A DNA stretch of 23,281 bases. Origin: a virus. Shown here in pieces: positions 1,491 through 14,120 of the stretch (within the stretch, counting starts at the first letter, position 1; every line of letters starts with the position of its first letter). Under the pieces are notes generated by a model. That model had not been told where the DNA came from. It worked only from the letters and a program-made list of their open reading frames with translations, and did not search any database. A program made the translations under genes and the position numbers. The stretch lies in the IMG/VR virus record IMGVR_UViG_3300035701_002933, positions 1 through 23,281 of that record. One strand, given 5' to 3'.

Positions 1491-1540
1491 GCGCTACAAA
1501 GTAGCGCACAGCGCTACAAAGTAGCGCACAGCGCTACAAC
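1491..1540. repeat. Alternating half-site array (operator-like), 20-bp unit in 2.5 copies
   Basis: GCGCTAC occurs at 1491-1497, 1511-1517 and 1531-1537, and its reverse complement GTAGCGC at 1501-1507 and 1521-1527, separated by AAA or ACA. The five half-sites are exactly 10 bp apart, so a dimeric protein could bind side by side on one face of the helix, and each neighbouring pair is a palindrome. It lies about 120 bp upstream of the leftward promoter at 1345-1373. An operator, partition site or iteron is possible; the choice is inference. Confidence 0.8.
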
Positions 1541-3064: not shown

Positions 3065-3327
3065 TGCGTTGAATCCAGCTCGTAATGCTCGATCATGCCC
3101 GCGAGTGAGTCAGCCCGGCCCTTCCACTTCTCGACGAGTTGCGCGTCGAGAATCTTGCGTTTGTCGTTGGCTTCGTCGATGTTTTTGATCGCATCGTTTT
3201 CGCGTTTTTTCTGCTGAGCCCGACAAAACACGAGCAGCCCGACAAGTGGGTAAAAATTGATAAGTTTCCGACCGCACTCGGGGCAGAACTTAGTGCTTAC
3301 GGTTTGACCGCAACAGTAGGTTGTCAT
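3061..3327 (-). CDS. Zinc-ribbon protein with hydrophobic segment (88 aa)
   Basis: The N-terminus has Cys5/Cys6 and Cys15/Cys18 in the form CCG ... FCPECGRKL, the classic short zinc-ribbon pattern. A hydrophobic stretch follows (INFYPLVGLLVFC, residues 23-35) that could be a short membrane anchor or the core of the domain, and then a charged helix (KKRENDAIKNIDEANDKRK ...) that is probably coiled coil. The start ATG at 3327 overlaps the stop of the GroES gene by ATGA and the stop overlaps the next start the same way. The zinc-ribbon, hydrophobic and coil order resembles small regulatory or membrane-associated phage proteins, but the function is not known. Confidence 0.7.
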   Translation of the reverse strand: MTTYCCGQTVSTKFCPECGRKLINFYPLVGLLVFCRAQQKKRENDAIKNIDEANDKRKILDAQLVEKWKGRADSLAGMIEHYELDSTQ

Positions 3328-3626
3328 TCGACGATCGTAGCGAGGATGTCGCCCTCCCGCATGATGTAGAGCTTCGATCCGTCTTCGGTCTCGAATTCGC
3401 TGGTACCCTGACCGTAGCGGTTGAAAAGCACCTTGTCGCCCGGCTTCAGGCGCAGCGCTTCGTAACCGCCCTGCATCAGCGGTCGCCCGTAACCGACGTT
3501 GACCACAACGCCCTTGCGGGGCTTCTCCTGAGCCGCGTCGGGAATGAAGATGCCGCCCTTCGACTGCTTCTCGGCGGCGTCCGGCTGAATGGTGACGTGG
3601 TCGTAGAGGGGAATGTACTTCGCCAT
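3324..3626 (-). CDS. groES: GroES-family co-chaperonin (Cpn10), 100 aa
   Basis: The protein caps a GroEL-type chaperonin ring. The full GroES fold is visible: the opening strand KYIPLYDHVTI, the mobile loop with GGIFIP at residues 24-29 (the hydrophobic tripeptide that grips GroEL), the roof region around NVGYGRP, the conserved LKPGDKVLFNRYG (60-72), and the ending LYIMREGDILATI. The length equals that of bacterial GroES. No GroEL gene lies in the window, so it presumably works with the host ring, as established for T4 gp31, which is needed to fold the T4 coat protein. It is coupled by ATGA to the zinc-ribbon gene downstream. The ribosome binding site is weak (AGG about 12 nt before the ATG). 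Confidence 0.93.
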   Translation of the reverse strand: MAKYIPLYDHVTIQPDAAEKQSKGGIFIPDAAQEKPRKGVVVNVGYGRPLMQGGYEALRLKPGDKVLFNRYGQGTSEFETEDGSKLYIMREGDILATIVE

Positions 3627-4079: not shown

Positions 4080-4109
4080 ATTATGGACGTCCCCGTCTAT
4101 AACTGTCAA
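4080..4109 (-). promoter_or_regulatory. Sigma70-like promoter for the GroES operon
   Basis: On the minus strand a perfect -35 TTGACA (4109-4104) and a -10 CATAAT (4085-4080) are separated by 18 bp. The predicted start lies near 4073, just before the gene at 4056. The left outer arm of the methyltransferase cassette begins 8 bp upstream (4117), so the cassette sits directly behind this promoter. Confidence 0.72.
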
Positions 4110-4132
4110 GCGTTAGAGTCTGACAAAAATAA

Positions 4133-4156
4133 TGGTACTGACATACTTGACGCATA
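4133..4156 (+). repeat. Left 24-bp inverted repeat of the methyltransferase cassette
   Basis: It begins TGGTACTGACA and ends TTGACGCATA, reading inward. It is the exact reverse complement of 5453-5476. The match stops at both boundaries: the next bases inside (AC against CC) and outside differ. Confidence 0.9.
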
Positions 4157-4177
4157 ACATTCACTTGTGTTGCAAAA

Positions 4178-5440
4178 TCAGACATTCAAAACCTCAATGA
4201 ACGCCCTTATGAACTCCGCCGCTTGCGGGACGACGATGGCGTTACCGTAGCCGCGCAGTCGTCCCACTCGATTGGGAACCCCATCAGCCAGCGGGAATGT
4301 GCCGGATTCAACGCGCCGCGTTTTTTCGTCGAGGCAGGGGATGAGGTCGAACCGACTCCAAGCGCCAAGGTGGCTTGCCGCGGCAGCGTATCGAGCCGCG
4401 AGCGCGTTGAGCCGTCCGGGTTCACTCCCGTCGTCGCCATCCCCGGTGTGTCCTTCCAGTCCCGAGACGCTGGTGTGCACCATCCTGCAAGCCTGGCCTG
4501 ACTGGTCAACGTGTCCGGTATTCCCGAATGAGCTCCCGTTGATTCCGAGTCCTCTGCTCGCGGCGTTGCCCAGCCCGTCAGTTTCTTGCCGTTCACTGTC
4601 TCGCGCAGACCCATCGCCAGTTCCACGCGCCTCTCGTAATCGCTGTTCCCGCCGTCCTGATTTGGACACATTGGCGTTGCCCAACCGGCCATAGCCGCCA
4701 TTTGATTGAGCTTCGATGGCGAGGGTCGATCCGCTTTGCTCGGCGGTGGCTTCGAGCCCTTGTCGTCCGAACAGACCGGCGTTGGCCACCCCGCCAGTCC
4801 GGCCGCCGTCTGGAGCGTGAAATGCTCGCCCGTGTTCCCCGCTGGATTCGCTCCCCCATCTGCATTCTGCGCCGCCGGCGTCGGCCACCCAGTAAAGCCG
4901 CTGTCTGATGTGGGGGGCACTGATGACAAGTCGCTCCCACCCGGCCTGATCGCCATGCACAATCCATCCTTCGCCTTGCGTGCCCGTCCCCGCAGCGCAC
5001 AGATCCGCCCCCCCGACGGCATATCCCAATGCTTCCAGGTCAGCACGTACTCCGGCGAGCCAGTCGAGCCCATCTTTTCCCGCAACCTGTTCTCCAAAGA
5101 TTGTTGCAGGGCGGCGCTTCTCGATGAGGCGCAGGAACTCTGGCCAAAGGTGGCGCTCGTCGGACTTGCCTTTGCCTTTCCCCGCAACGCTGAACGGCTG
5201 GCAGGGGCAGGAACCCGTCCAGACTTCCCGATCGACGGGCCACCCGGCAAGCTGCAAGGCGAGTTCCCAGCCACCGATGCCTCCGAAGAAATGGCACCGC
5301 TTGAATTGAAGAGCGTCCTCTGCTTTGACATCGACGATACTCCTGTCGTCCACAACCGCAGTCGGGTAAAGTTTCTTCAGCCACTTCGATGCGAACGAAT
5401 CGTTTTCGTTGAAGTAGGTGAGTGTCTCATTTTGCGTCAT
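4178..5440 (-). CDS. DNA cytosine-5 methyltransferase (420 aa)
   Basis: This enzyme transfers a methyl group from S-adenosylmethionine to C5 of cytosine in DNA. All main motifs are present in order: motif I FFGGIGGWE (51-59), motif IV PCQPFS with catalytic Cys80 (79-84), a motif VI variant GEQV (116-119; the usual form is ENV), motif VIII QRLYWV (180-185), a long Gly/Asn/Arg-rich target-recognition region (about 190-360) with repeated VADAG, VANAG and LGNA units, and motif X GYGNAIVVPQ near residue 397. It resembles the phage subgroup with EQV and APHIRQRLYWVADA. No restriction gene is beside it, so it is an orphan enzyme, likely protecting phage DNA or marking it. The gene fills a 24-bp inverted-repeat cassette and shares its DNA with a second long frame. 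No clear ribosome binding site is seen. Confidence 0.93.
   Translation of the reverse strand: MTQNETLTYFNENDSFASKWLKKLYPTAVVDDRSIVDVKAEDALQFKRCHFFGGIGGWELALQLAGWPVDREVWTGSCPCQPFSVAGKGKGKSDERHLWPEFLRLIEKRRPATIFGEQVAGKDGLDWLAGVRADLEALGYAVGGADLCAAGTGTQGEGWIVHGDQAGWERLVISAPHIRQRLYWVADAGGAECRWGSESSGEHGRAFHAPDGGRTGGVANAGLFGRQGLEATAEQSGSTLAIEAQSNGGYGRLGNANVSKSGRREQRLREARGTGDGSARDSERQETDGLGNAASRGLGINGSSFGNTGHVDQSGQACRMVHTSVSGLEGHTGDGDDGSEPGRLNALAARYAAAASHLGAWSRFDLIPCLDEKTRRVESGTFPLADGVPNRVGRLRGYGNAIVVPQAAEFIRAFIEVLNV
4207..5355 (-). CDS. Overlapping +1 frame inside the methyltransferase gene with GW-x-TP repeats (382 aa)
   Basis: A 382-residue frame lies wholly within the methyltransferase gene, shifted +1. 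It is not random in appearance: five units GWPTPAAQN, GWPTPVCSD, GWATPMCPN, GWATPRAED and GWCTPASRD recur every 30-50 residues, and the end reads LNPAHSRWLMGFPIEW. From memory, similar G-W-P-T-P and LNP...WLMGFP sequences occur in phage proteins annotated as methylases. Part of the pattern is forced, because GTGGCCGACGCCGG reads VADAG in one frame and GWPTPA in the next. The N-terminus is Ser/Ala-rich. It may be a true second product, a recoded extension or only a shadow; I lean slightly towards shadow. Confidence 0.3.
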   Translation of the reverse strand: MWTTGVSSMSKQRTLFNSSGAISSEASVAGNSPCSLPGGPSIGKSGRVPAPASRSALRGKAKASPTSATFGQSSCASSRSAALQQSLENRLREKMGSTGSPEYVLTWKHWDMPSGGRICALRGRARKAKDGLCMAIRPGGSDLSSVPPTSDSGFTGWPTPAAQNADGGANPAGNTGEHFTLQTAAGLAGWPTPVCSDDKGSKPPPSKADRPSPSKLNQMAAMAGWATPMCPNQDGGNSDYERRVELAMGLRETVNGKKLTGWATPRAEDSESTGAHSGIPDTLTSQARLAGWCTPASRDWKDTPGMATTGVNPDGSTRSRLDTLPRQATLALGVGSTSSPASTKKRGALNPAHSRWLMGFPIEWDDCAATVTPSSSRKRRSS

Positions 5441-5452
5441 GTTTTTCCGTGG

Positions 5453-5476
5453 TATGCGTCAAGTATGTCAGTACCA
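5453..5476 (-). repeat. Right 24-bp inverted repeat of the methyltransferase cassette
   Basis: It is the exact reverse complement of 4133-4156 and lies 12 bp upstream of the methyltransferase start codon, so the promoter of that gene must overlap it or lie outside the unit. A TACAAT box on the minus strand (5487-5482) is a possible -10, but I see no good -35. Confidence 0.9.
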
Positions 5477-5501
5477 AAATAATTGTAGACTGCCTCGCAC
5501 A

Positions 5502-5967: not shown

Positions 5968-6076
5968 CCTCAGCATCGGCAACATCAGGTGGCCGCCCGA
6001 TATTGCTTCACCAGCGCGTTCCGTGAAAGGGGACGACGACTTTTGTCGTTGGTCCCTTTATTTTTTGGAATGCGCG
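5968..6076 (+). repeat. Copy 1 of a ~110-bp intergenic module
   Basis: It aligns to 11823-11932 with about 8 mismatches and one single-base gap. It includes a GGTGGCCGCC palindrome-like core, a TTCAC...GTGAA stem, a strong hairpin with T-rich tail and the GGAATGCGCG segment that serves as the ribosome-binding region. It ends 3 nt before the start of the gene at 6080. In copy 2 the downstream gene starts immediately. Confidence 0.9.
6026..6066 (+). terminator. Terminator-like hairpin in module copy 1
   Basis: AAAGGG pairs with CCCTTT and CGACGAC pairs with GTCGTTG around a TTTT loop, with a 2-by-2 mismatch between the two stems. TTTATTTTTT follows. It lies after the gene at 5502-5939 and only 14 nt before the next start codon, so it could end the first message, attenuate the next or mark a processed 5' end. 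Confidence 0.65.
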
Positions 6077-6700: not shown

Positions 6701-7073
6701 CTTCGGATGGAACAAGACCCACAAGGGATACATATTCTCGATAATGACCCGGCCGGAACGTGAGCAGAAGTGGCTCCCGATTTGCGGGTACTCGTGCTAC
6801 TCCAGGCACGTCGCGGTCGAGCCGACGTATGCAGCCGTCCCGGACGACATGATCCCTGACGCCGCAGGACTCGATGCCGCGCGGGAGTTGGCGATGTCGA
6901 AGATGAGAGCCAGCATCAGAGCGGCGATCGACAAGGCGCACGCCGGCAAGCCGCCGATGCGGTTGCAGCCGACGTCGATTACCCTGATGAGCGACACCAC
7001 CACGAAAGAGGTGCGCTGTCTGTTCCCTGCCGATGATCCCTTGGAGGTGAGAAGCGCCGATGTCGCTCCTTGA
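6429..7073 (+). CDS. Hypothetical protein overlapping the previous gene (214 aa)
   Basis: GGAGAG lies 5 nt before ATG 6429, a strong reason to accept this start although 272 nt overlap the previous gene in another frame. Residues 1-90 are Pro/Ser/Thr-rich, probably disordered, and encoded in the overlap. The unique part (residues 90-214) is folded-looking: HLPDFGWNKTHKGYIFSI, a Cys pair in ICGYSCYSRHVAV, and a helical segment around AARELAMSKMRASIRAAIDKAHAG. An internal Met (6744) is possible, but the protein-like residues just before it argue for the upstream start. It ends just before the large terminase gene, so a packaging or terminase-accessory role is inferred from position only. Confidence 0.7.
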   Translation: MSSTPTTKPASKTRGKSPKLPKPDPSSVAPVPDLLPQPSPPPSTPDLSKVEEPEKVQASTPSTPSSPPTPPSPPAKSTTPSAPIAARHLPDFGWNKTHKGYIFSIMTRPEREQKWLPICGYSCYSRHVAVEPTYAAVPDDMIPDAAGLDAARELAMSKMRASIRAAIDKAHAGKPPMRLQPTSITLMSDTTTKEVRCLFPADDPLEVRSADVAP

Positions 7074-7075
7074 AA

Positions 7076-9028
7076 ATGACCACATCCTTCCCCGTTGACG
7101 GGCCCACCGACTGGTTCTACCGCACGCTCGTACCGAAAGATCCGGTCGACAACGTCGCCTGGAGAAAATCGGTACTCGAGAAGGGCTACCGGAGCAAGAA
7201 GTTCGCGGCGGCGCTCCGTGACTGGTGCGCGCGAGACATTCTCTTTTACCTGAACACGTTCGGGTACCTGCTCGAAGTCCGCGACAAGGCGCCCTGGCAG
7301 CCGTCCCGGTGTTTCGGTAAGGCGCGCGAGATCCCGTTCATCACGCGCCCCTACCAGGATGAAGCGATTCTCAGGATTTGTGCGGCTCTGGGGCAACGCG
7401 ACATCCGAACGCTCAAGTCCCGCGAAATGGGCGCGACGTGGCTCAATCTCTACGTCGTCGATCACTCGTGGCGGTTCCACCCGCATTCGCATTTTGGCCT
7501 CGTGTCAAAAGACGAAAAGTCGGTCGACAACCCGGATGATCCCGACAGCCTGATGAGCAAGCTCGATTTCATCGACGATCACCTGCCGCGGTGGCTGCGT
7601 CCGACCAGAAACAGGAATACCTCGAAGCACACGATCAAAAACGTGATGAACCTCTCCACCATCACGGGCGCCGCCTGCACGGGCGATATGTTCCGCGGCG
7701 GCCGTAAACTGATGATCGTCGCGGACGAAATGCACGCGTGGCCGACGGATGCCGAATTCGCGGCCCACGACTCGATGCAGCACGTCACCTACTGCCGCAA
7801 CATGATCTCGACCCCCGTCCGTGACAAAGGTCAATCCGGCGCGTTTTTCAAAGTCTGCCAGGACAAACACAGCGACATGGAGAGGATCGACCTGGACTGG
7901 AAGGATGATCCCGACAAATGCTCCGGCCTTTACACTTCGGAAGGCTCCTCGCTGGTTCTGCTCGACAAGGGCTTCAAGCATCCCGAGGGGTACAAGTTCA
8001 TCCTCGACGGCAAGGTGCGGTCGCCATACTACGATTGGGAGTGCCGGCGCCCGCTGGCGACCGAGCAGTCGATCGCGGCCGAGCTGGACAAAGATTTTGG
8101 GGGTGCCACAAATCGGTTTTTCGACCCGACCATCATCGCTCGGGGCTTCTCGATTGCGCGAGACCCATCCTACCGCTGCCGGCTCGAGGTACGTGATGGA
8201 CGGTTCTTCCCCTCGCTGATCCTGGACGAGCGGGGCGACATAGAACTCTGGACGTTCCCGGTATCCGGGCTGACGTTCGACGACGACAACCGGCTTGTCG
8301 TCCCTGCCAGCCGCGCTTATGCCAGTGGGTGGGACATCGCGGCCGGTCTCCACGGAAAATCGACCAGTTATTCCGCGGGCTCGTTTCTGGATGAGACCAA
8401 CGGCGAGCAGGTCGCCATGTGGATGGGTAACGACATCCCGCCGCACGAGCTGCCGGAGCTGGCGGTCGCGATCTGCCAGGTCTTCAACAATGCCCTTATC
8501 AACCCCGAAGTCACCGGCATGGGGAATACGTTCGTCAACTTCCTGCAAAAAACCGGGTACACCAACATCTGGCGGCGGCCGGTTCAGGAGGGCTCGATCG
8601 GAGGTCAAAGGGCATCGGTCAGACTGGGGTACGACAACAAGGACGGCGGCAAGACGATTTTCACCGCTCTTCAGAATGCGATTCAGTTGGGGAAGGTTTC
8701 GATCCGGTCCCAGCGCGTCATCGAGGAGTGCGAGAGGTACTACATCGACGTCAACGGCAAGCTCAAACATCCCCTGATCGGCAAGGGGCGGGACAACGCC
8801 CCCGAGGTCTCGCACGGGGACTGCGCTATCGCCACGGCGACGGGTTGGTATGCTATCCACACCAGGCCGGCGCACACTCCGACACCGGACGAGGAAGCAA
8901 TCAACCCGGACAGTCAGAGCGGGCGCAGGGGCGACATCATCGACAGCAGGCGCCGCGGGAAGAGTCGCTCATGGTGGCCGAAGACGGAAGTGAAGACGTT
9001 GCGGTATCGTGAAATTCTGGAGAAATGA
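7076..9028 (+). CDS. terL: Terminase large subunit (650 aa)
   Basis: This is the ATP-driven motor and nuclease that packages phage DNA through the portal. I use ATG 7076; TTG 7070 is only two codons earlier and overlaps the previous stop. The ATPase domain shows a variant Walker A, KSREMGATW (114-122), Walker B LMIVADE with catalytic Glu218 (212-218), and the coupling motif STP (245-247). The nuclease domain shows SGWDIAAG with Asp420, Glu478 (NPEVTGMG) and SHGDCAIAT with Asp582 as a plausible metal triad. Length is normal for the family. The gene is followed 3 nt later by the portal gene, the standard packaging order. The C-terminal 50 residues are basic and may contact the portal or DNA. 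Confidence 0.92.
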   Translation: MTTSFPVDGPTDWFYRTLVPKDPVDNVAWRKSVLEKGYRSKKFAAALRDWCARDILFYLNTFGYLLEVRDKAPWQPSRCFGKAREIPFITRPYQDEAILRICAALGQRDIRTLKSREMGATWLNLYVVDHSWRFHPHSHFGLVSKDEKSVDNPDDPDSLMSKLDFIDDHLPRWLRPTRNRNTSKHTIKNVMNLSTITGAACTGDMFRGGRKLMIVADEMHAWPTDAEFAAHDSMQHVTYCRNMISTPVRDKGQSGAFFKVCQDKHSDMERIDLDWKDDPDKCSGLYTSEGSSLVLLDKGFKHPEGYKFILDGKVRSPYYDWECRRPLATEQSIAAELDKDFGGATNRFFDPTIIARGFSIARDPSYRCRLEVRDGRFFPSLILDERGDIELWTFPVSGLTFDDDNRLVVPASRAYASGWDIAAGLHGKSTSYSAGSFLDETNGEQVAMWMGNDIPPHELPELAVAICQVFNNALINPEVTGMGNTFVNFLQKTGYTNIWRRPVQEGSIGGQRASVRLGYDNKDGGKTIFTALQNAIQLGKVSIRSQRVIEECERYYIDVNGKLKHPLIGKGRDNAPEVSHGDCAIATATGWYAIHTRPAHTPTPDEEAINPDSQSGRRGDIIDSRRRGKSRSWWPKTEVKTLRYREILEK

Positions 9029-9031
9029 CCG

Positions 9032-10915
9032 ATGTCTATGATCCAATCGCCATTCGCCCCGCCGCCAGTTCCAGGCGTCGCTGCTCCTGCTCCTGATCCT
9101 GTTGAACAGAAAAAGGGCAGACCCATTGAGTGGCCTGTGAATTTCACGAAAGAGGACTTCACCAAACTCAAGGCTTCCGTGAAAACCTCATACGAGAAAC
9201 TCGACTCGTTCCGCAAGAATCGGCTGGCGCTGATTGAACAGCACGCCGGCAGCTTCTACGGGGACGGAGAGAAACGCTCACCGTCCGACACCGTCGTCAA
9301 TCTCCTCGGGCAGATGGTCCGCACGTACTGCGAGCAGCTCGTGTCGGCGAATCCCCAGGTTGCGATCCGTACCAACAAAATGGCTCTCAAGGCGGCATGT
9401 CGGAATTTCGAAGTAGCCGCCAATCATGTCCTCAAGGCGATCAACATCCAGCCTGCCCTCGAGCTGTGGGTGATTGAATCACTCTTCTCCATGGGCATCC
9501 TCAAGGTCGGCGTTGACCTCCCCGAGCATACCTCTCGCTCATACCCGTTTGACTCCTCGGCGATCCCGTTCTGCGAGGCAGTGTTCTTCGATGACTTCGT
9601 TTTCGACACGAACGCCAGCCGATGGGACCAGATCCAGTTTTGCGGGGACCAGTACAAGGAACTGCGGGAAGTCGTCCTCGATGATCCGCGCAATAACTCC
9701 GCGATCCTGGACGAGCTGACGTCCAGCGATTCCACCAACGCGTTCACAACCGGCATGACAGAAAAGGCCGATCACCTGTCAACCGGGAAGGAGGCGTACG
9801 AGAACGACGACAAGAGTCATTTTCGGCTTCAGGATGTGTTTCTCCCGAAACAGCGAGTGATGGTGACATGGGTCATCGACGGGCCCGAGGAGCCGTTGCG
9901 CGTGAACCCGTGGACAGGTCCGCCGTCCGGTCCCTACATCGAGCTGATGTACGAGCCGATCTTGAACAACGTGATGCCCAAGGCTCCGGCGCATGACATC
10001 GCCCCGCTCTCCGACCTGGAAAACGAGCTCGTCAACAAGATGGGCGACCAGGCGCAGCGGCAAAAGACGATCACCTACGCCACGCTGACCGGAATTCAGG
10101 ACGCCAAAGCCGTCATCAATGCCAGCGACGGCGAGACGATCAACGTGATTGACCCCAACTCGGTGAAAGAGGTTTCCTATGGCGGGGTCCGCCAGGAGAC
10201 GTTGACGTTTGCCCAATGGGTGAACGGTCGCGCCAGCGAAGAGGGAGGAAACCTCAAGACACTTGCCGGCCTTGCGACCGGGGCTGACACCCTCGGGCAG
10301 GAAGAACTGCTCAAGTCGTCGTCGTCCGGCCGAATCAAGTTCTATCAACTGAAGGTTTACCAGGGCACGGCCCGCGCCGTCGAAGCGATCGCGTGGTACA
10401 TCTGGAACGATCCGCTTGTGCGCGTGGACGTCATCGACAAGGTTCCCGGCACCGACATGCAACTCGATGTCACCTGGCCGATTCAGCAGAATGAGTACGG
10501 GCAGGAATTCGACACGAGGATGGGGCAGTTCAACGATTACAACTTTTCGATCGAACCGTTCTCGATGTCTCCGCAGTCGCCGGCACAACGCCTGCAACAG
10601 ATCCGTTCGATTGTCGAGACCGAACTGCTCCCGATGATGCAGATGCTCACCGCGCAGGGAATTTCAATCGACCTTCAGGAGCTCATACGGATCTACGCTC
10701 GGCTCACCGGCCTCGACGAGTTGCTTGATATTGTCAAGATGCAGGCGCCCGTTGACGATTCCCAGACACCGGTCGATACCGGCGGAATCAAACCATCCAA
10801 AACGACGCGTGTCTACGACAGCCGAAGCACAAAGACGCCCGGCTCCGATCAGACAGACAGTCTCGCAAAGCTGATTGGTGGGATGAAGGGCACCCCGCCG
10901 CAACAGGGAGCGTGA
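9032..10915 (+). CDS. Portal protein (627 aa)
   Basis: The portal is a dodecameric channel at one head vertex through which DNA enters and leaves, and it docks the terminase. The assignment comes from position immediately after the large terminase, from the length (like podovirus portals), and from sequence features: a Pro-rich N-terminus, the early helical segment with RNRLALIEQHAGSFYG, the hydrophobic core strands around NLLGQMVRTYCEQLVSANPQV, and a long helical C-terminal half ending in a Thr/Ser/Asp-rich tail. GGAG lies 9 nt before ATG 9032; a second Met two codons on is possible. The exact portal family is not recognised by me. Confidence 0.82.
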   Translation: MSMIQSPFAPPPVPGVAAPAPDPVEQKKGRPIEWPVNFTKEDFTKLKASVKTSYEKLDSFRKNRLALIEQHAGSFYGDGEKRSPSDTVVNLLGQMVRTYCEQLVSANPQVAIRTNKMALKAACRNFEVAANHVLKAINIQPALELWVIESLFSMGILKVGVDLPEHTSRSYPFDSSAIPFCEAVFFDDFVFDTNASRWDQIQFCGDQYKELREVVLDDPRNNSAILDELTSSDSTNAFTTGMTEKADHLSTGKEAYENDDKSHFRLQDVFLPKQRVMVTWVIDGPEEPLRVNPWTGPPSGPYIELMYEPILNNVMPKAPAHDIAPLSDLENELVNKMGDQAQRQKTITYATLTGIQDAKAVINASDGETINVIDPNSVKEVSYGGVRQETLTFAQWVNGRASEEGGNLKTLAGLATGADTLGQEELLKSSSSGRIKFYQLKVYQGTARAVEAIAWYIWNDPLVRVDVIDKVPGTDMQLDVTWPIQQNEYGQEFDTRMGQFNDYNFSIEPFSMSPQSPAQRLQQIRSIVETELLPMMQMLTAQGISIDLQELIRIYARLTGLDELLDIVKMQAPVDDSQTPVDTGGIKPSKTTRVYDSRSTKTPGSDQTDSLAKLIGGMKGTPPQQGA

Positions 10916-10918
10916 TGA

Positions 10919-11107
10919 ATGACTGGGAATTGCGATGGAGGATTCGAGTATCGACTAAACGCAGCAATCCTTACGGGGGATTTGTTTGGATTGTGGAAAA
11001 CGGCCGACGAGATCAATAGCAGACTTCTCAACGAAAGATGGTTCGAGGATTACTATGTCGAAGTACCGCCTGAAGAACGTCGAGACCGGAAACGAGCATG
11101 TCGTTGA
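10919..11107 (+). CDS. Small hypothetical protein (62 aa)
   Basis: GGGAG ends 8 nt before ATG 10919 and the frame MTGNCDGGFEYRLNAAIL... has normal composition, with an acidic aromatic stretch SRLLNERWFEDYYVEV. It overlaps the start of the next gene by 53 nt in another frame. A competing 34-codon frame starts at 10915 (TGATG overlap with the portal stop) and would use the same ribosome binding site; I prefer the longer one. Its DNA contains the GAGGA that drives the gene at 11055. The function is unknown. Confidence 0.5.
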   Translation: MTGNCDGGFEYRLNAAILTGDLFGLWKTADEINSRLLNERWFEDYYVEVPPEERRDRKRACR

Positions 11108-11558
11108 CTGCAACCGCGCCCAGCTCGAGACGCGAGTGATTGGCGGAGGCCCGGCAGAAGTCGGCGCACGCGTACGCAGCGTGTCGCGCCTCGACGGCAG
11201 CGAGGTCATTCACGAAATCGTGGGCGTCGCCGCAACTCCGATCTCGACCTTCGCGACCTGGGATCGCGGATTCCGCGATGACCAGATGGGGATCAATCCC
11301 GACGATCGGATCGAGACCCTGCAAGCGGACGAGGCAATGGGATTAACCGGAGTCGACTACGATCCAGAAACGGGGGAAGCGATTTTCTCCTGCCCTTCCG
11401 CCTACAAGCGCTACTGCGAGGCGCACGGATTCGGATCGAAGAATGCGGGATACTCGAGTCCCAAAATGCGCGATGAACGAGAGCGCGAAATCATGCACTT
11501 GCCCCAGTTGCCCGAAACCGCGCAGCCGGACAACCAGATGATTTTTATGGATAGGTGA
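11055..11558 (+). CDS. Hypothetical protein (167 aa)
   Basis: I choose ATG 11055 (MSKYRLKNVETGNEHVVDC...) because GAGGA lies 6 nt before it, and the longer frame from 10986 starts inside another gene. The N-terminal 50 residues look like a small beta barrel (KYRLKNVETGNEHVVDCNRAQL...). The rest is acidic and polar with no recognised motif, and the end reads MIFMDR. It lies between portal and scaffold genes, where head-assembly factors or proteases are often found, but I see no catalytic motif for a protease. Confidence 0.65.
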   Translation: MSKYRLKNVETGNEHVVDCNRAQLETRVIGGGPAEVGARVRSVSRLDGSEVIHEIVGVAATPISTFATWDRGFRDDQMGINPDDRIETLQADEAMGLTGVDYDPETGEAIFSCPSAYKRYCEAHGFGSKNAGYSSPKMRDEREREIMHLPQLPETAQPDNQMIFMDR

Positions 11559-11581
11559 TGGGCAAGCTGGGCGCTTTGCTA

Positions 11582-11623
11582 TTGACAACGCAAACCAATT
11601 AGCGAAGAATCGCTCGCAGCGAT
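11582..11623 (+). promoter_or_regulatory. Possible promoter and small hairpin before the 46-aa gene
   Basis: TTGACA (11582-11587) is a perfect -35; 17 bp later AAGAAT (11605-11610) matches the -10 consensus at four of six positions. A perfect 6-bp stem ATCGCT/AGCGAT with a 3-nt loop follows at 11609-11623. The -10 is weak, so the promoter is a guess supported mainly by spacing. Confidence 0.4.
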
Positions 11624-11650
11624 GGAATTATCAGTTGTGAGATCAAGATT

Positions 11651-11791
11651 ATGCCGCTCCGAAAAGGTACCAGTCACGAGGCAGTCGCCCAGAACATTCG
11701 GACGGAGCTCGCCGCTGGCAAGCCCCAGAAACAAGCTGTAGCGATCGCTCTCCACACTGCACACCCCAAGGGCGTCAAAAAGAAGAAGTAA
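11651..11791 (+). CDS. Small basic phage protein of the PQKQAVAIAL type (46 aa)
   Basis: The frame reads MPLRKGTSHEAVAQNIRTEL, then AAGKPQKQAVAIALHTAHPK and a Lys-rich end. From memory, short proteins with the layout MPL(K/R)KGSS...I..NI.TE...GKPQKQAVAIA and a Lys-rich tail are widespread in phages and prophages, with no known function. It is too short for most gene finders. Basic and helical, it may bind nucleic acid or the capsid interior. The ribosome binding site is weak. It is followed by module copy 2, whose hairpin could terminate its message. Confidence 0.75.
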   Translation: MPLRKGTSHEAVAQNIRTELAAGKPQKQAVAIALHTAHPKGVKKKK

Positions 11792-11822
11792 GTTTGGCGG
11801 GACCGACGGTACAAGTCGTCGG

Positions 11823-11932
11823 CCTCGACATCGGCAACATCGGGTGGCCGCCCGAAGCTGCTTCACCAGCGCGTTCCGTGAAAGGGGACGACGACTTTTG
11901 TCGTTGGTCCCCTTTCTCTTTTGGAATGCGCG
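11823..11932 (+). repeat. Copy 2 of the ~110-bp intergenic module
   Basis: It matches 5968-6076 at about 92% by hand alignment. Differences cluster in a 3-base block after GCCCGA and in the T-rich tail. It ends exactly at the scaffold start codon (11933). The hairpin stem is stronger than in copy 1 because one extra C restores an 8-bp outer stem, which suggests selection on structure. Confidence 0.9.
11881..11922 (+). terminator. Terminator-like hairpin in module copy 2
   Basis: AAAGGGGA pairs with TCCCCTTT, then after one bulged G, CGACGAC pairs with GTCGTTG around a TTTT loop. A pyrimidine-rich tail CTCTTTT follows. The gap to the next start codon is only 10 nt and contains GGAA, so a single short segment appears to carry both the termination signal and the ribosome binding site. 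Confidence 0.65.
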
Positions 11933-13021
11933 ATGCCAGAACTCGAATCGCTTCTACCCGACACTGGAGCCGGTGGCGATTACGATTTTGGACCTGATGC
12001 TTCGGTAGGGGGTGGGTCGTCAGACCTATCGCCCGAGCCGGCCGCAGCCGCCGCCCCGGAGCCGACACCCGCGCCGGAAGCTCCGGCAGCTCCCGCCGCT
12101 CCCGCCGCCGCACCAGTCGCCCAGCCGAAAAGCGAGTACGACGTCGTTGACCCGGTCCTCGACGCTCCGCCGCCGGCAGCACAGCCGGCTTCAGCTCCCG
12201 CCGCTTCGGCTACTCCCGCCGCCTCGGCCGTCGACCCATCCGGCCTTTCGCCGCAGCAGCAAATGCGAGCGAACGCCCTCGGAATGACTCCGCAACAGCT
12301 TGCGGCGTTCAAAGACCCCGAGATGGCTCTTCTGACGGCGGAAAACATCGCCTGGCGTACACTCGCCGCGTCGCGTGCGCAACCGGCAGCTCCGCAAGCC
12401 CAGCAACCGGCTCCCATCCAGCCGCCGAGATACGACGAAAACCTGGCTCGCCAGCAGTACGCCGAATTGGGAGTTGACGACACCTTCGCCGCCGCCCTGG
12501 TCGAGCGCGACAAGCAGATCCACGCGGCGCAAATGTCCGGCTTTCAGGCGCAGCAGGCTCTCGGCGAAGTCCGTGCCTGGGCCCAACAGACGCAGAATCA
12601 GCTTACCCATCAGCAGCAGCTCCATCAGCAGGATCTCATTACGCGAGACTACGAAGGGTTTGTGTCGAAGCAGTCGCCAGAAATCCGGCAGGCTCTTGCC
12701 GATCCCCAGGTGAAAGCACAAATCTTCCAGGAGGCCGACGTCCGCTGTGCGGGATTGCACGCGCGCGGTCTCCAGATCCCGAGTTTCGATCAGGTTTTCC
12801 AGGCGGCGACAAGTGCCGTACTGGGAGACAAAGCGCAGTCCATTGCCCGTGAGCAGGTACGCCGCGAAGTCGCAGCGCACCGAGACCGGGCAGTTTCCCG
12901 CCCCCGTGGTGCCGACGCTCCCAAGCAGCAAGGCGATGCCGCGGCCGGTTCTTTCGCGAACGACTTCTTTTCCCGGCGGGGTCTTGCCCCTCTCGGAACC
13001 ATTCACCGCGACGACGTCTAA
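11933..13021 (+). CDS. Scaffold-like protein (362 aa)
   Basis: The start is ATG 11933 (MPELESLLPDTGAGGDYD...), with GGAA just upstream. Residues 30-115 are Ala/Pro repeats and probably disordered. Residues 110-300 are Gln/Ala/Glu-rich helices (QQQMRANALGMTPQQLAAFKD, AEVR-like coils and QNQLTHQQQLHQQDL), and the end is basic (RSRPRGADAPKQQG ... FFSRRGLAPLGTIHRDDV region). It directly precedes the major capsid gene. Phage scaffolds typically have this composition, length and place, and guide coat assembly before leaving the head. The basic C-terminus fits the coat-binding end of P22-type scaffolds. The function is inferred from these features. Confidence 0.75.
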   Translation: MPELESLLPDTGAGGDYDFGPDASVGGGSSDLSPEPAAAAAPEPTPAPEAPAAPAAPAAAPVAQPKSEYDVVDPVLDAPPPAAQPASAPAASATPAASAVDPSGLSPQQQMRANALGMTPQQLAAFKDPEMALLTAENIAWRTLAASRAQPAAPQAQQPAPIQPPRYDENLARQQYAELGVDDTFAAALVERDKQIHAAQMSGFQAQQALGEVRAWAQQTQNQLTHQQQLHQQDLITRDYEGFVSKQSPEIRQALADPQVKAQIFQEADVRCAGLHARGLQIPSFDQVFQAATSAVLGDKAQSIAREQVRREVAAHRDRAVSRPRGADAPKQQGDAAAGSFANDFFSRRGLAPLGTIHRDDV

Positions 13022-13040
13022 CTTTTGGGAGCAATAAACC

Positions 13041-14120
13041 ATGTCGGAACTCGCCTTTGAGGACATTACGGACCTCGTCGCCGGTACGCTGAAGCATCTC
13101 GGCCGGATGAAATTCCAGCAAATCGCCCAGAACTTGCAGGACTACGAGGTAGTCGGCAACTGGTTCAAGCGCGACAAGGTGCAATTCGACTACGGCGTTG
13201 GTATCCAACGCAACATCATGGGCTCGCTCTCAAAGCAGGCCCGGCATACCGGTGCAATGACCACCGACTCGGTCGACATTCCGACCTTGATGGTGCAGCT
13301 CGCCCTCAACTGGCGTCACGCGCAAGTGCCGTGGGCTTTTGAATATCAGGAACTCCTGATGAACCGGGGCGAGGCCCTGGTCTTCAACGTCGTCAAGCCG
13401 CGGCGCGTCGACGCGCTCCTGTCGATGGCTGAGGAGCTCGAGGCGAAAGCCTGGACGCTCACAACTTCGGGCGACAAGCTGATGCCCTGGGGCTTACCGT
13501 ACTGGATCGTTTACTCGGCCGTGGCAGCGCCCGGCGGTTTCAACGGCGGGGCTCCGTCGGGGTTCACGACCGTTGGCGGTATCGACCCGACGGTGACGAC
13601 CAACTTCAAGAATTACTGTTCGACCTACGTCGCAGTGACGAAGCTCGACCTGATTAAGACGATGCGTCAGGCGCATCGCAAGATCCGCTGGCGCGCGCCG
13701 GTCAACGTGGCCGACTACGGACGCGGCGGATACGGCAACCTGCGGCTCTACACCGACAACACGACCATCGCCGCGTTCGAAGACCTGGGCGAAGCTCAGA
13801 ACGAGAACCTCGGCCGCGATCTCGGTCGGTTCGGCGGGGCGAAGGACGTGAAGTACGTCGAGGAAGTGCTGACCTTCCGCAGGCACCCGTTGATCTACGT
13901 GCCGCAAATCGACGACACGTCGGTCTTCACCGCCGCGACCAACCCGGTCTACATGATCGACCACTCGACGTTTTACCCGGTGTGTCTCGCCGGCGACTAC
14001 CTGCGCGAGGGTGAAGTGATTCGGGCGCCGAATCAGCACAACCTTTTCCGCATCTTCATCGACCTGACCTACAACTATTTGTGCGTCGATCGCCGACGCA
14101 ACGCGGTTTTCTCCAAGTAA
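13041..14120 (+). CDS. Major capsid protein candidate (359 aa)
   Basis: GGGAG lies about 9 nt before ATG 13041. The protein is a single globular unit with the order expected of a coat subunit: an N-terminal helix (FEDITDLVAGTLKHLG), a beta/loop segment (QFDYGVGIQRNIMG), a long spine-like helix (VDALLSMAEELEAKAWTL), the insertion-like PWGLPYWIVYSAVAAPGGFNGG, and C-terminal strands (TLFRIF-like region ... LCVDRRRNAVFSK). Position after the scaffold and before head-surface genes, with length near 360, supports the major coat role. The fold (HK97-type) is inferred, not proven by a motif. A phage co-chaperonin encoded at 3324-3626 could assist its folding. Confidence 0.8.
   Translation: MSELAFEDITDLVAGTLKHLGRMKFQQIAQNLQDYEVVGNWFKRDKVQFDYGVGIQRNIMGSLSKQARHTGAMTTDSVDIPTLMVQLALNWRHAQVPWAFEYQELLMNRGEALVFNVVKPRRVDALLSMAEELEAKAWTLTTSGDKLMPWGLPYWIVYSAVAAPGGFNGGAPSGFTTVGGIDPTVTTNFKNYCSTYVAVTKLDLIKTMRQAHRKIRWRAPVNVADYGRGGYGNLRLYTDNTTIAAFEDLGEAQNENLGRDLGRFGGAKDVKYVEEVLTFRRHPLIYVPQIDDTSVFTAATNPVYMIDHSTFYPVCLAGDYLREGEVIRAPNQHNLFRIFIDLTYNYLCVDRRRNAVFSK

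Follow-up and report, generated by a model that had tools for sequence, protein, structure and literature searches.

Solitary methylases come and go between phages by a route usually attributed to illegitimate or homologous recombination, and small gene units that lack a recombinase of their own are known as pdif/Xer modules and integron cassettes, which move by site-specific recombination at conserved cores. Mobile insertion cassettes are defined by inverted repeats, the lack of a transposase, and a target duplication (PMC3913671), and one of them, MIC231A1, was reported to be mobilised in trans by the IS231A transposase (PMC3913671). The IS1595 family of insertion sequences is marked by 8-bp target-site duplications (TSDs), an N-terminal zinc finger, and a DDE_Tnp_IS1595 domain (PMC8101967); ISApl4, a member of this family, has A/T-rich 8-bp repeats (PMC12561309).

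Here we analyze a methylase gene enclosed by terminal inverted repeats (TIRs) in a 23,281-nucleotide stretch of viral DNA (IMG/VR record IMGVR_UViG_3300035701_002933, positions 1 to 23,281), referred to throughout as the window. Positions 4126-5483 very probably represent a non-autonomous IS1595-type transposon, or mobile insertion cassette, that inserted between two divergent gene blocks of a phage. The features of this region are as follows.

4080..4109, minus strand: promoter-like TTGACA-N18-CATAAT of the leftward block (11/12 consensus match; consensus only)
4117..4126, plus strand: left outer arm AGTCTGACAA of an interrupted palindrome; phage sequence, outside the element
4126..4133, no strand: left TSD AAAATAAT, 8 bp, matching the right copy at 8/8 positions
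4134..4156, plus strand: left TIR GGTACTGACATACTTGACGCATA, 23 bp, on the 3' side of the cargo gene; the same end occurs on units of other phages and of cyanobacteria
4134..4178, minus strand: 3' shell, TTTTGCAACACAAGTGAATGTT plus TIR, 45 nt (blastn 93% over 45 nt, E 7e-12)
4178..5440, minus strand: gene for a solitary C5-cytosine DNA methyltransferase, 420 aa (Pfam PF00145, E 1e-11; PHROG 363, E 5e-61)
5427..5475, minus strand: 5' shell, comprising the TIR, the RBS-like CCACGGAAAAAC, the start codon, and the first codons, 49 nt (blastn 96% over 49 nt to L187, E 1e-15)
5453..5475, minus strand: right TIR, 23 bp, identical to the left TIR and inverted
5476..5483, no strand: right TSD AAAATAAT, 8/8 with the left copy
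5483..5491, plus strand: right outer arm TTGTAGACT of the interrupted palindrome; phage sequence

Boundaries, cargo, and insertion site of the methylase unit

The inverted repeat at 4133-4156 and 5453-5476 is perfect. At 24 nt it exceeds every other exact inverted repeat in the window, the next best being 15 nt; shuffles gave 0 matches. A preliminary description of this DNA had taken all 24 bp as the unit's ends. Comparison with related units instead places the end of the element at GG..CC, a shift of one base per side, so that the TIR is 23 bp long and begins with a terminal GG (GGTACTGAC...; probe form GGYACTGACWTACTTGAMGCA), and the outermost T/A pair of the longer repeat is part of the target duplication. 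AAATAA, previously read as a 6-bp direct repeat, does flank both ends (P ~ 4e-4 for random positions, 0.04 if both 6-mers are A/T only), and the true duplication is the 8-bp AAAATAAT. On its own AAATAA would be modest evidence because both sides are A/T-rich; it is the presence of an 8-bp direct repeat at the same position in related units that makes the evidence for duplication strong.

The methylase is the sole gene between the TIRs and carries the motifs FGGIGG, PCQ, EQV, RQRL, and GNAI. Neither a transposase nor a restriction-enzyme gene is among the genes of the unit, and with only a methylase between its TIRs the unit is a derivative rather than an autonomous IS1595 element. The 80 IMG/VR methylase loci nearest to this enzyme have no flanking TIRs, indicating that these ends do not go with the methylase family as such, and DNA and protein searches of named phages and plasmids returned ordinary methylase relatives only.

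The insertion is intergenic, lying between the divergent gene blocks of the phage, and leaves the promoter-like sequence of the leftward block unbroken. It splits a 25-bp imperfect palindrome whose outer arms pair as originally described (predicted empty site, AGTCTGACAAAAATAATTGTAGACT); the further proposal that these outer arms resemble the inner arms found no support as a meaningful likeness. The insertion sites of other units (described below) are not palindromic, and we therefore regard the palindrome in the window as a local feature and not as a recombination site. A palindromic target as a rule for the family is ruled out by the same sites. No empty site was found in relatives sought via the terminase, the first rightward gene, and the major capsid protein (MCP), searches that recovered distant phages only; the nearest in IMG/VR have 48-63% MCP identity.

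Several other features of this phage were observed. Its terminase, portal, and MCP (window 7070-14120) have only distant IMG/VR relatives, and it apparently belongs to a separate phage lineage. The leftward block encodes, downstream of the promoter-like site, a phage-borne Cpn10 (GroES-like co-chaperonin; window 3324-3626). A 53-bp exact direct repeat precedes two genes of the structural block (window 6004-6056 and 11859-11911); the strong hairpin that it holds (-20.3 and -26.6 kcal/mol, z -5.1 and -6.9) has a U-rich tail, making this a duplicated terminator-like element. At window 1491-1539, a 29-bp direct repeat with 20-bp spacing (GCGCTACAAAGTAGCGCACAGCGCTACAA) forms a tandem with palindromic units.

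Units with the same ends and their link to IS1595

The exact 24-mer has no match in IMG/VR beyond the window's own record, and a 20-mer of the repeat has none in 84,980 species genomes. When IMG/VR was scanned with a 17-mer from the repeat, a phage contig (L100) emerged that carries two diverged copies in inverted orientation. Its duplication is the 8-bp AAAGGAAG, and the element there starts at GG, not at the preceding T. Further pairs were obtained with looser patterns and with searches of the records behind the matches; a reversed-pattern control gave 0 matches in those records and 1 in 386 cyanobacterial genomes. The preliminary description had proposed seeking the repeat around other genes in phage and metagenome contigs, and the same ends do occur there around unrelated genes. 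The units recovered are the following.

L187: 1319 bp, TSD AAAATTAG
L167: 821 bp, no TSD (1/8)
L166: 274 bp, TSD GAACGAAA
L165: 318 bp, TSD CTAACAAT
L164: 1926 bp, TSD TTCGGAAT
L172 (L100 1264-2820): 1557 bp, TSD AAAGGAAG
L173 (L122 2042-4612): 2571 bp, no TSD (3/8)
L168, from a cyanobacterial MAG (Stenomitos): 378 bp, TSD AAACTTTT

Seven of the nine units (the window unit, L187, L166, L165, L164, L172, and L168) have a perfect 8-bp TSD, the sequence of which differs between units and is mostly A/T-rich. Units with these ends occur mainly in metagenomic phages, with two phage contigs carrying two units each. In a sample of 386 cyanobacterial genomes we also found miniature elements of 141-163 bp with the same TIR, several per genome, whose duplications match at 7-8 of 8 positions.

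Among side observations on these units, a 43-kb phage contig harbors two related IS1595-type elements with passenger genes (L100 1264-2820, L122 2042-4612), the transposase being truncated in one and frameshifted in the other. The 274-378 bp units contain short ORFs of 64-89 aa (L165 721-990, L166 660-863, L168 3044-3238), which have no PHROG match and, for the 89- and 67-aa ORFs, no Pfam match either; these are possible small cargo genes. The transposase-bearing phage unit L164 has a passenger ORF for an HNH-like/D5-like regulator (1249-1665; PHROGs 374 and 323). The L187 cassette (duplication at 1501-1508) has inserted at the 3' end of an HTH gene of the phage, whose last codons it replaces.

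The link to IS1595 comes from genes encoded within the same TIRs: L164 and L173 (L122) encode both PF12760 (zinc ribbon) and PF12762 (transposase domain), and L172 (L100) encodes PF12760 alone. The L173 transposase is frameshifted, with its two halves in different frames, and that of L164 is without the stretch matching VYTDESPAY of L122, in the region of the second catalytic Asp. With these two copies damaged, no intact transposase with these ends is present among the recovered units. The cyanobacterial genomes that carry miniature elements yielded no autonomous partner, having IS1595 transposases with other ends or none. The transposase is absent from isolated phages except for two fecal metagenome records at ~31% identity, and its plasmid relatives are distant only; the inverted repeats of two named plasmid IS1595 elements were not definable by a simple scan. 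Of the hallmarks of the family, the window unit thus has the 8-bp TSD (AAAATAAT, 8/8) and a TIR with the terminal GG common to units encoding PF12762/PF12760 proteins, and it has no DDE_Tnp_IS1595 transposase of its own.

These comparisons bear on three other explanations. The first, one of two readings offered in the preliminary description, is a cassette of the Xer or integrase type, in which two att- or dif-like sites with a 6-bp AAATAA core were recombined by a host tyrosine recombinase, as in pdif modules. Inverted arms flanking a direct repeat, and a target that is itself an imperfect palindrome, are what such a cassette would display. A recombination core would be conserved, however, and here the repeat is 8 bp and differs at every insertion, the outer arms are not conserved, the other targets are non-palindromic, and the elements to which these ends belong code for IS1595 DDE transposases, all of which makes this explanation very improbable. 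Similarly hard to credit is the suggestion that the repeats are operators bound by a regulator, or phase-variation sites that invert the methylase segment. The repeats are indeed close to the gene (12 and 21 bp away), with the TIR extending into the expression region, but at many loci these ends enclose unrelated genes or gene-poor elements and are accompanied by fresh 8-bp duplications, which disfavors the operator reading that had been named as a possible refutation, and the flanking repeat is direct, not inverted as an inversion would call for. Finally, because every phage example is from an IMG/VR metagenome assembly, an assembly chimera has to be considered. A chimera would neither yield an exact 8-bp duplication beside TIRs nor recur in independent contigs and bacterial genomes, and the GC content of the cassette (0.61) matches that of the phage (0.60); we consider this origin negligible. 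Transposition with target duplication into a palindrome, also raised in the preliminary description, is the reading that the evidence supports, with a duplication of 8 bp instead of 6.

A shared shell around different methylases

Three of the units, those of the window, L187, and L167, are methylase cassettes with common sequence inside both ends (CACGGAAAAACATGACGCAAAWTGA; TTTTGCAACACAARTGAAWGTT). In matches to L187, the 5' shell, running from the TIR through CACGGAAAAAC to the first codons, has 92-96% identity over 49 nt, and the 3' shell has 91-93% identity over 45-46 nt. The enzymes within are quite different: the C5 enzymes of the window and L167 share 28% identity across 174 aligned positions, and the cargo of L187 is a D12-class adenine methylase unrelated to either. 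The L187 enzyme is 52% identical to the methylase of a related phage-like contig (L169) that has no TIR adjoining it, which suggests that cargo was replaced within a retained shell. The shell is not present in the L164-L166 units, which have other cargo, nor was it found in the other loci compared, and named phages gave only chance short matches to it. Three cassettes with near-identical shells and different methylases point to repeated movement or exchange, and one possibility is that cargo was exchanged by recombination between two cassettes within the conserved shells.

The shells also bear on whether the window unit is simply an ordinary phage methylase caught in a decayed insertion sequence, a dead relic of internal deletion without continuing mobility. 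We consider a relic unlikely, though less readily dismissed than the explanations above: no intact transposase with these ends was found, those of related units are damaged, and two units have no duplications. The two TIRs of the window unit are nevertheless identical to each other and its duplication is perfect, suggesting a recent event, and the near-identical shells around different methylases in cassettes of different phages speak for repeated movement or exchange.

Proposed mobilization and comparison with known systems

We propose that the window unit is a transposable cassette that is probably moved in trans. The acting enzyme would be an IS1595 DDE transposase, provided by the host, by a prophage, or by a co-infecting phage; it would bind the TIRs and move the unit, making an 8-bp staggered cut at A/T-rich targets. 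The idea of a recombinase acting in trans is thus retained from the preliminary description, with an IS1595 transposase as the presumed enzyme and not Xer. The shell would give an RBS and start codon to whichever methylase lies inside, with translation from GGAAAAAC-ATG, and the methylase may shield phage DNA from host restriction, such counter-restriction being the presumed benefit of carriage. Near-identical ends around quite different phage methylases suggest that phages trade such genes as insertable cassettes. We lean, with some reserve, toward the broader reading that these cassettes form a dedicated family of phage one-gene transposons, with a constant shell, exchange of unrelated methylase classes, and IS1595 mobilization in trans.

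These cassettes make visible a defined vehicle for methylase transfer, with exact ends, exact TSDs, and one shell around three different methylases. If the cassette moves, phages could change their DNA modification, and hence their restriction phenotype, in a single step; if the one-gene transposon family is real, counter-restriction enzymes would be swapped by transposition and not only by homologous recombination. Mobile insertion cassettes would also extend from bacterial and plasmid genes to phage genomes, and the TIR consensus is a simple probe for more units and other cargo.

The open-access literature searched yielded no account of a solitary methylase in an IS1595 cassette, of phage cassettes of this kind, or of a single shell with interchangeable methylases, and within it the earlier statement that no methylase-only element had been described still holds. 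The parts are of known kinds; as far as we found, there is no description of their combination, a phage-borne IS1595 cassette in which the shell is constant and the methylases are exchangeable.

Compared with pdif/Xer modules and integron cassettes, the window unit is likewise a small gene unit without its own recombinase; unlike them, it has no conserved crossover core, the flanking 8-bp repeat varying at every insertion, and it is not moved by site-specific recombination at such a core. With IS1595 insertion sequences (Siguier et al. 2009, cited in PMC8101967; ISApl4, PMC12561309) it shares the terminal GG and an A/T-rich 8-bp TSD, and related units encode the zinc-ribbon and DDE_Tnp_IS1595 domains; it differs in having no transposase, and the searches recovered no intact autonomous copy bearing this TIR. 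In mobile restriction-modification systems (Kobayashi group; PMC3031569), DNA-modification genes also move with flanking repeats and TSDs, but those are complete systems moved with IS copies or by long-duplication insertion, whereas the window cassette is a solitary methylase directly between TIRs, with an 8-bp TSD, in a phage. Close counterparts, too, are mobile insertion cassettes (MIC231, of the IS231/IS4 family, and the qnrD mic elements; PMC3913671), which likewise have one or more genes between transposon inverted repeats, a TSD, and no transposase nearby. Having IS inverted repeats around a passenger gene, no transposase, and a target duplication, the window unit is by definition such a cassette, here with IS1595-type ends. 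It departs from those described in that its ends are of the IS1595 type instead of IS231, in being phage-borne, and in that methylases of different classes occupy one constant shell, from which the start codon also comes.
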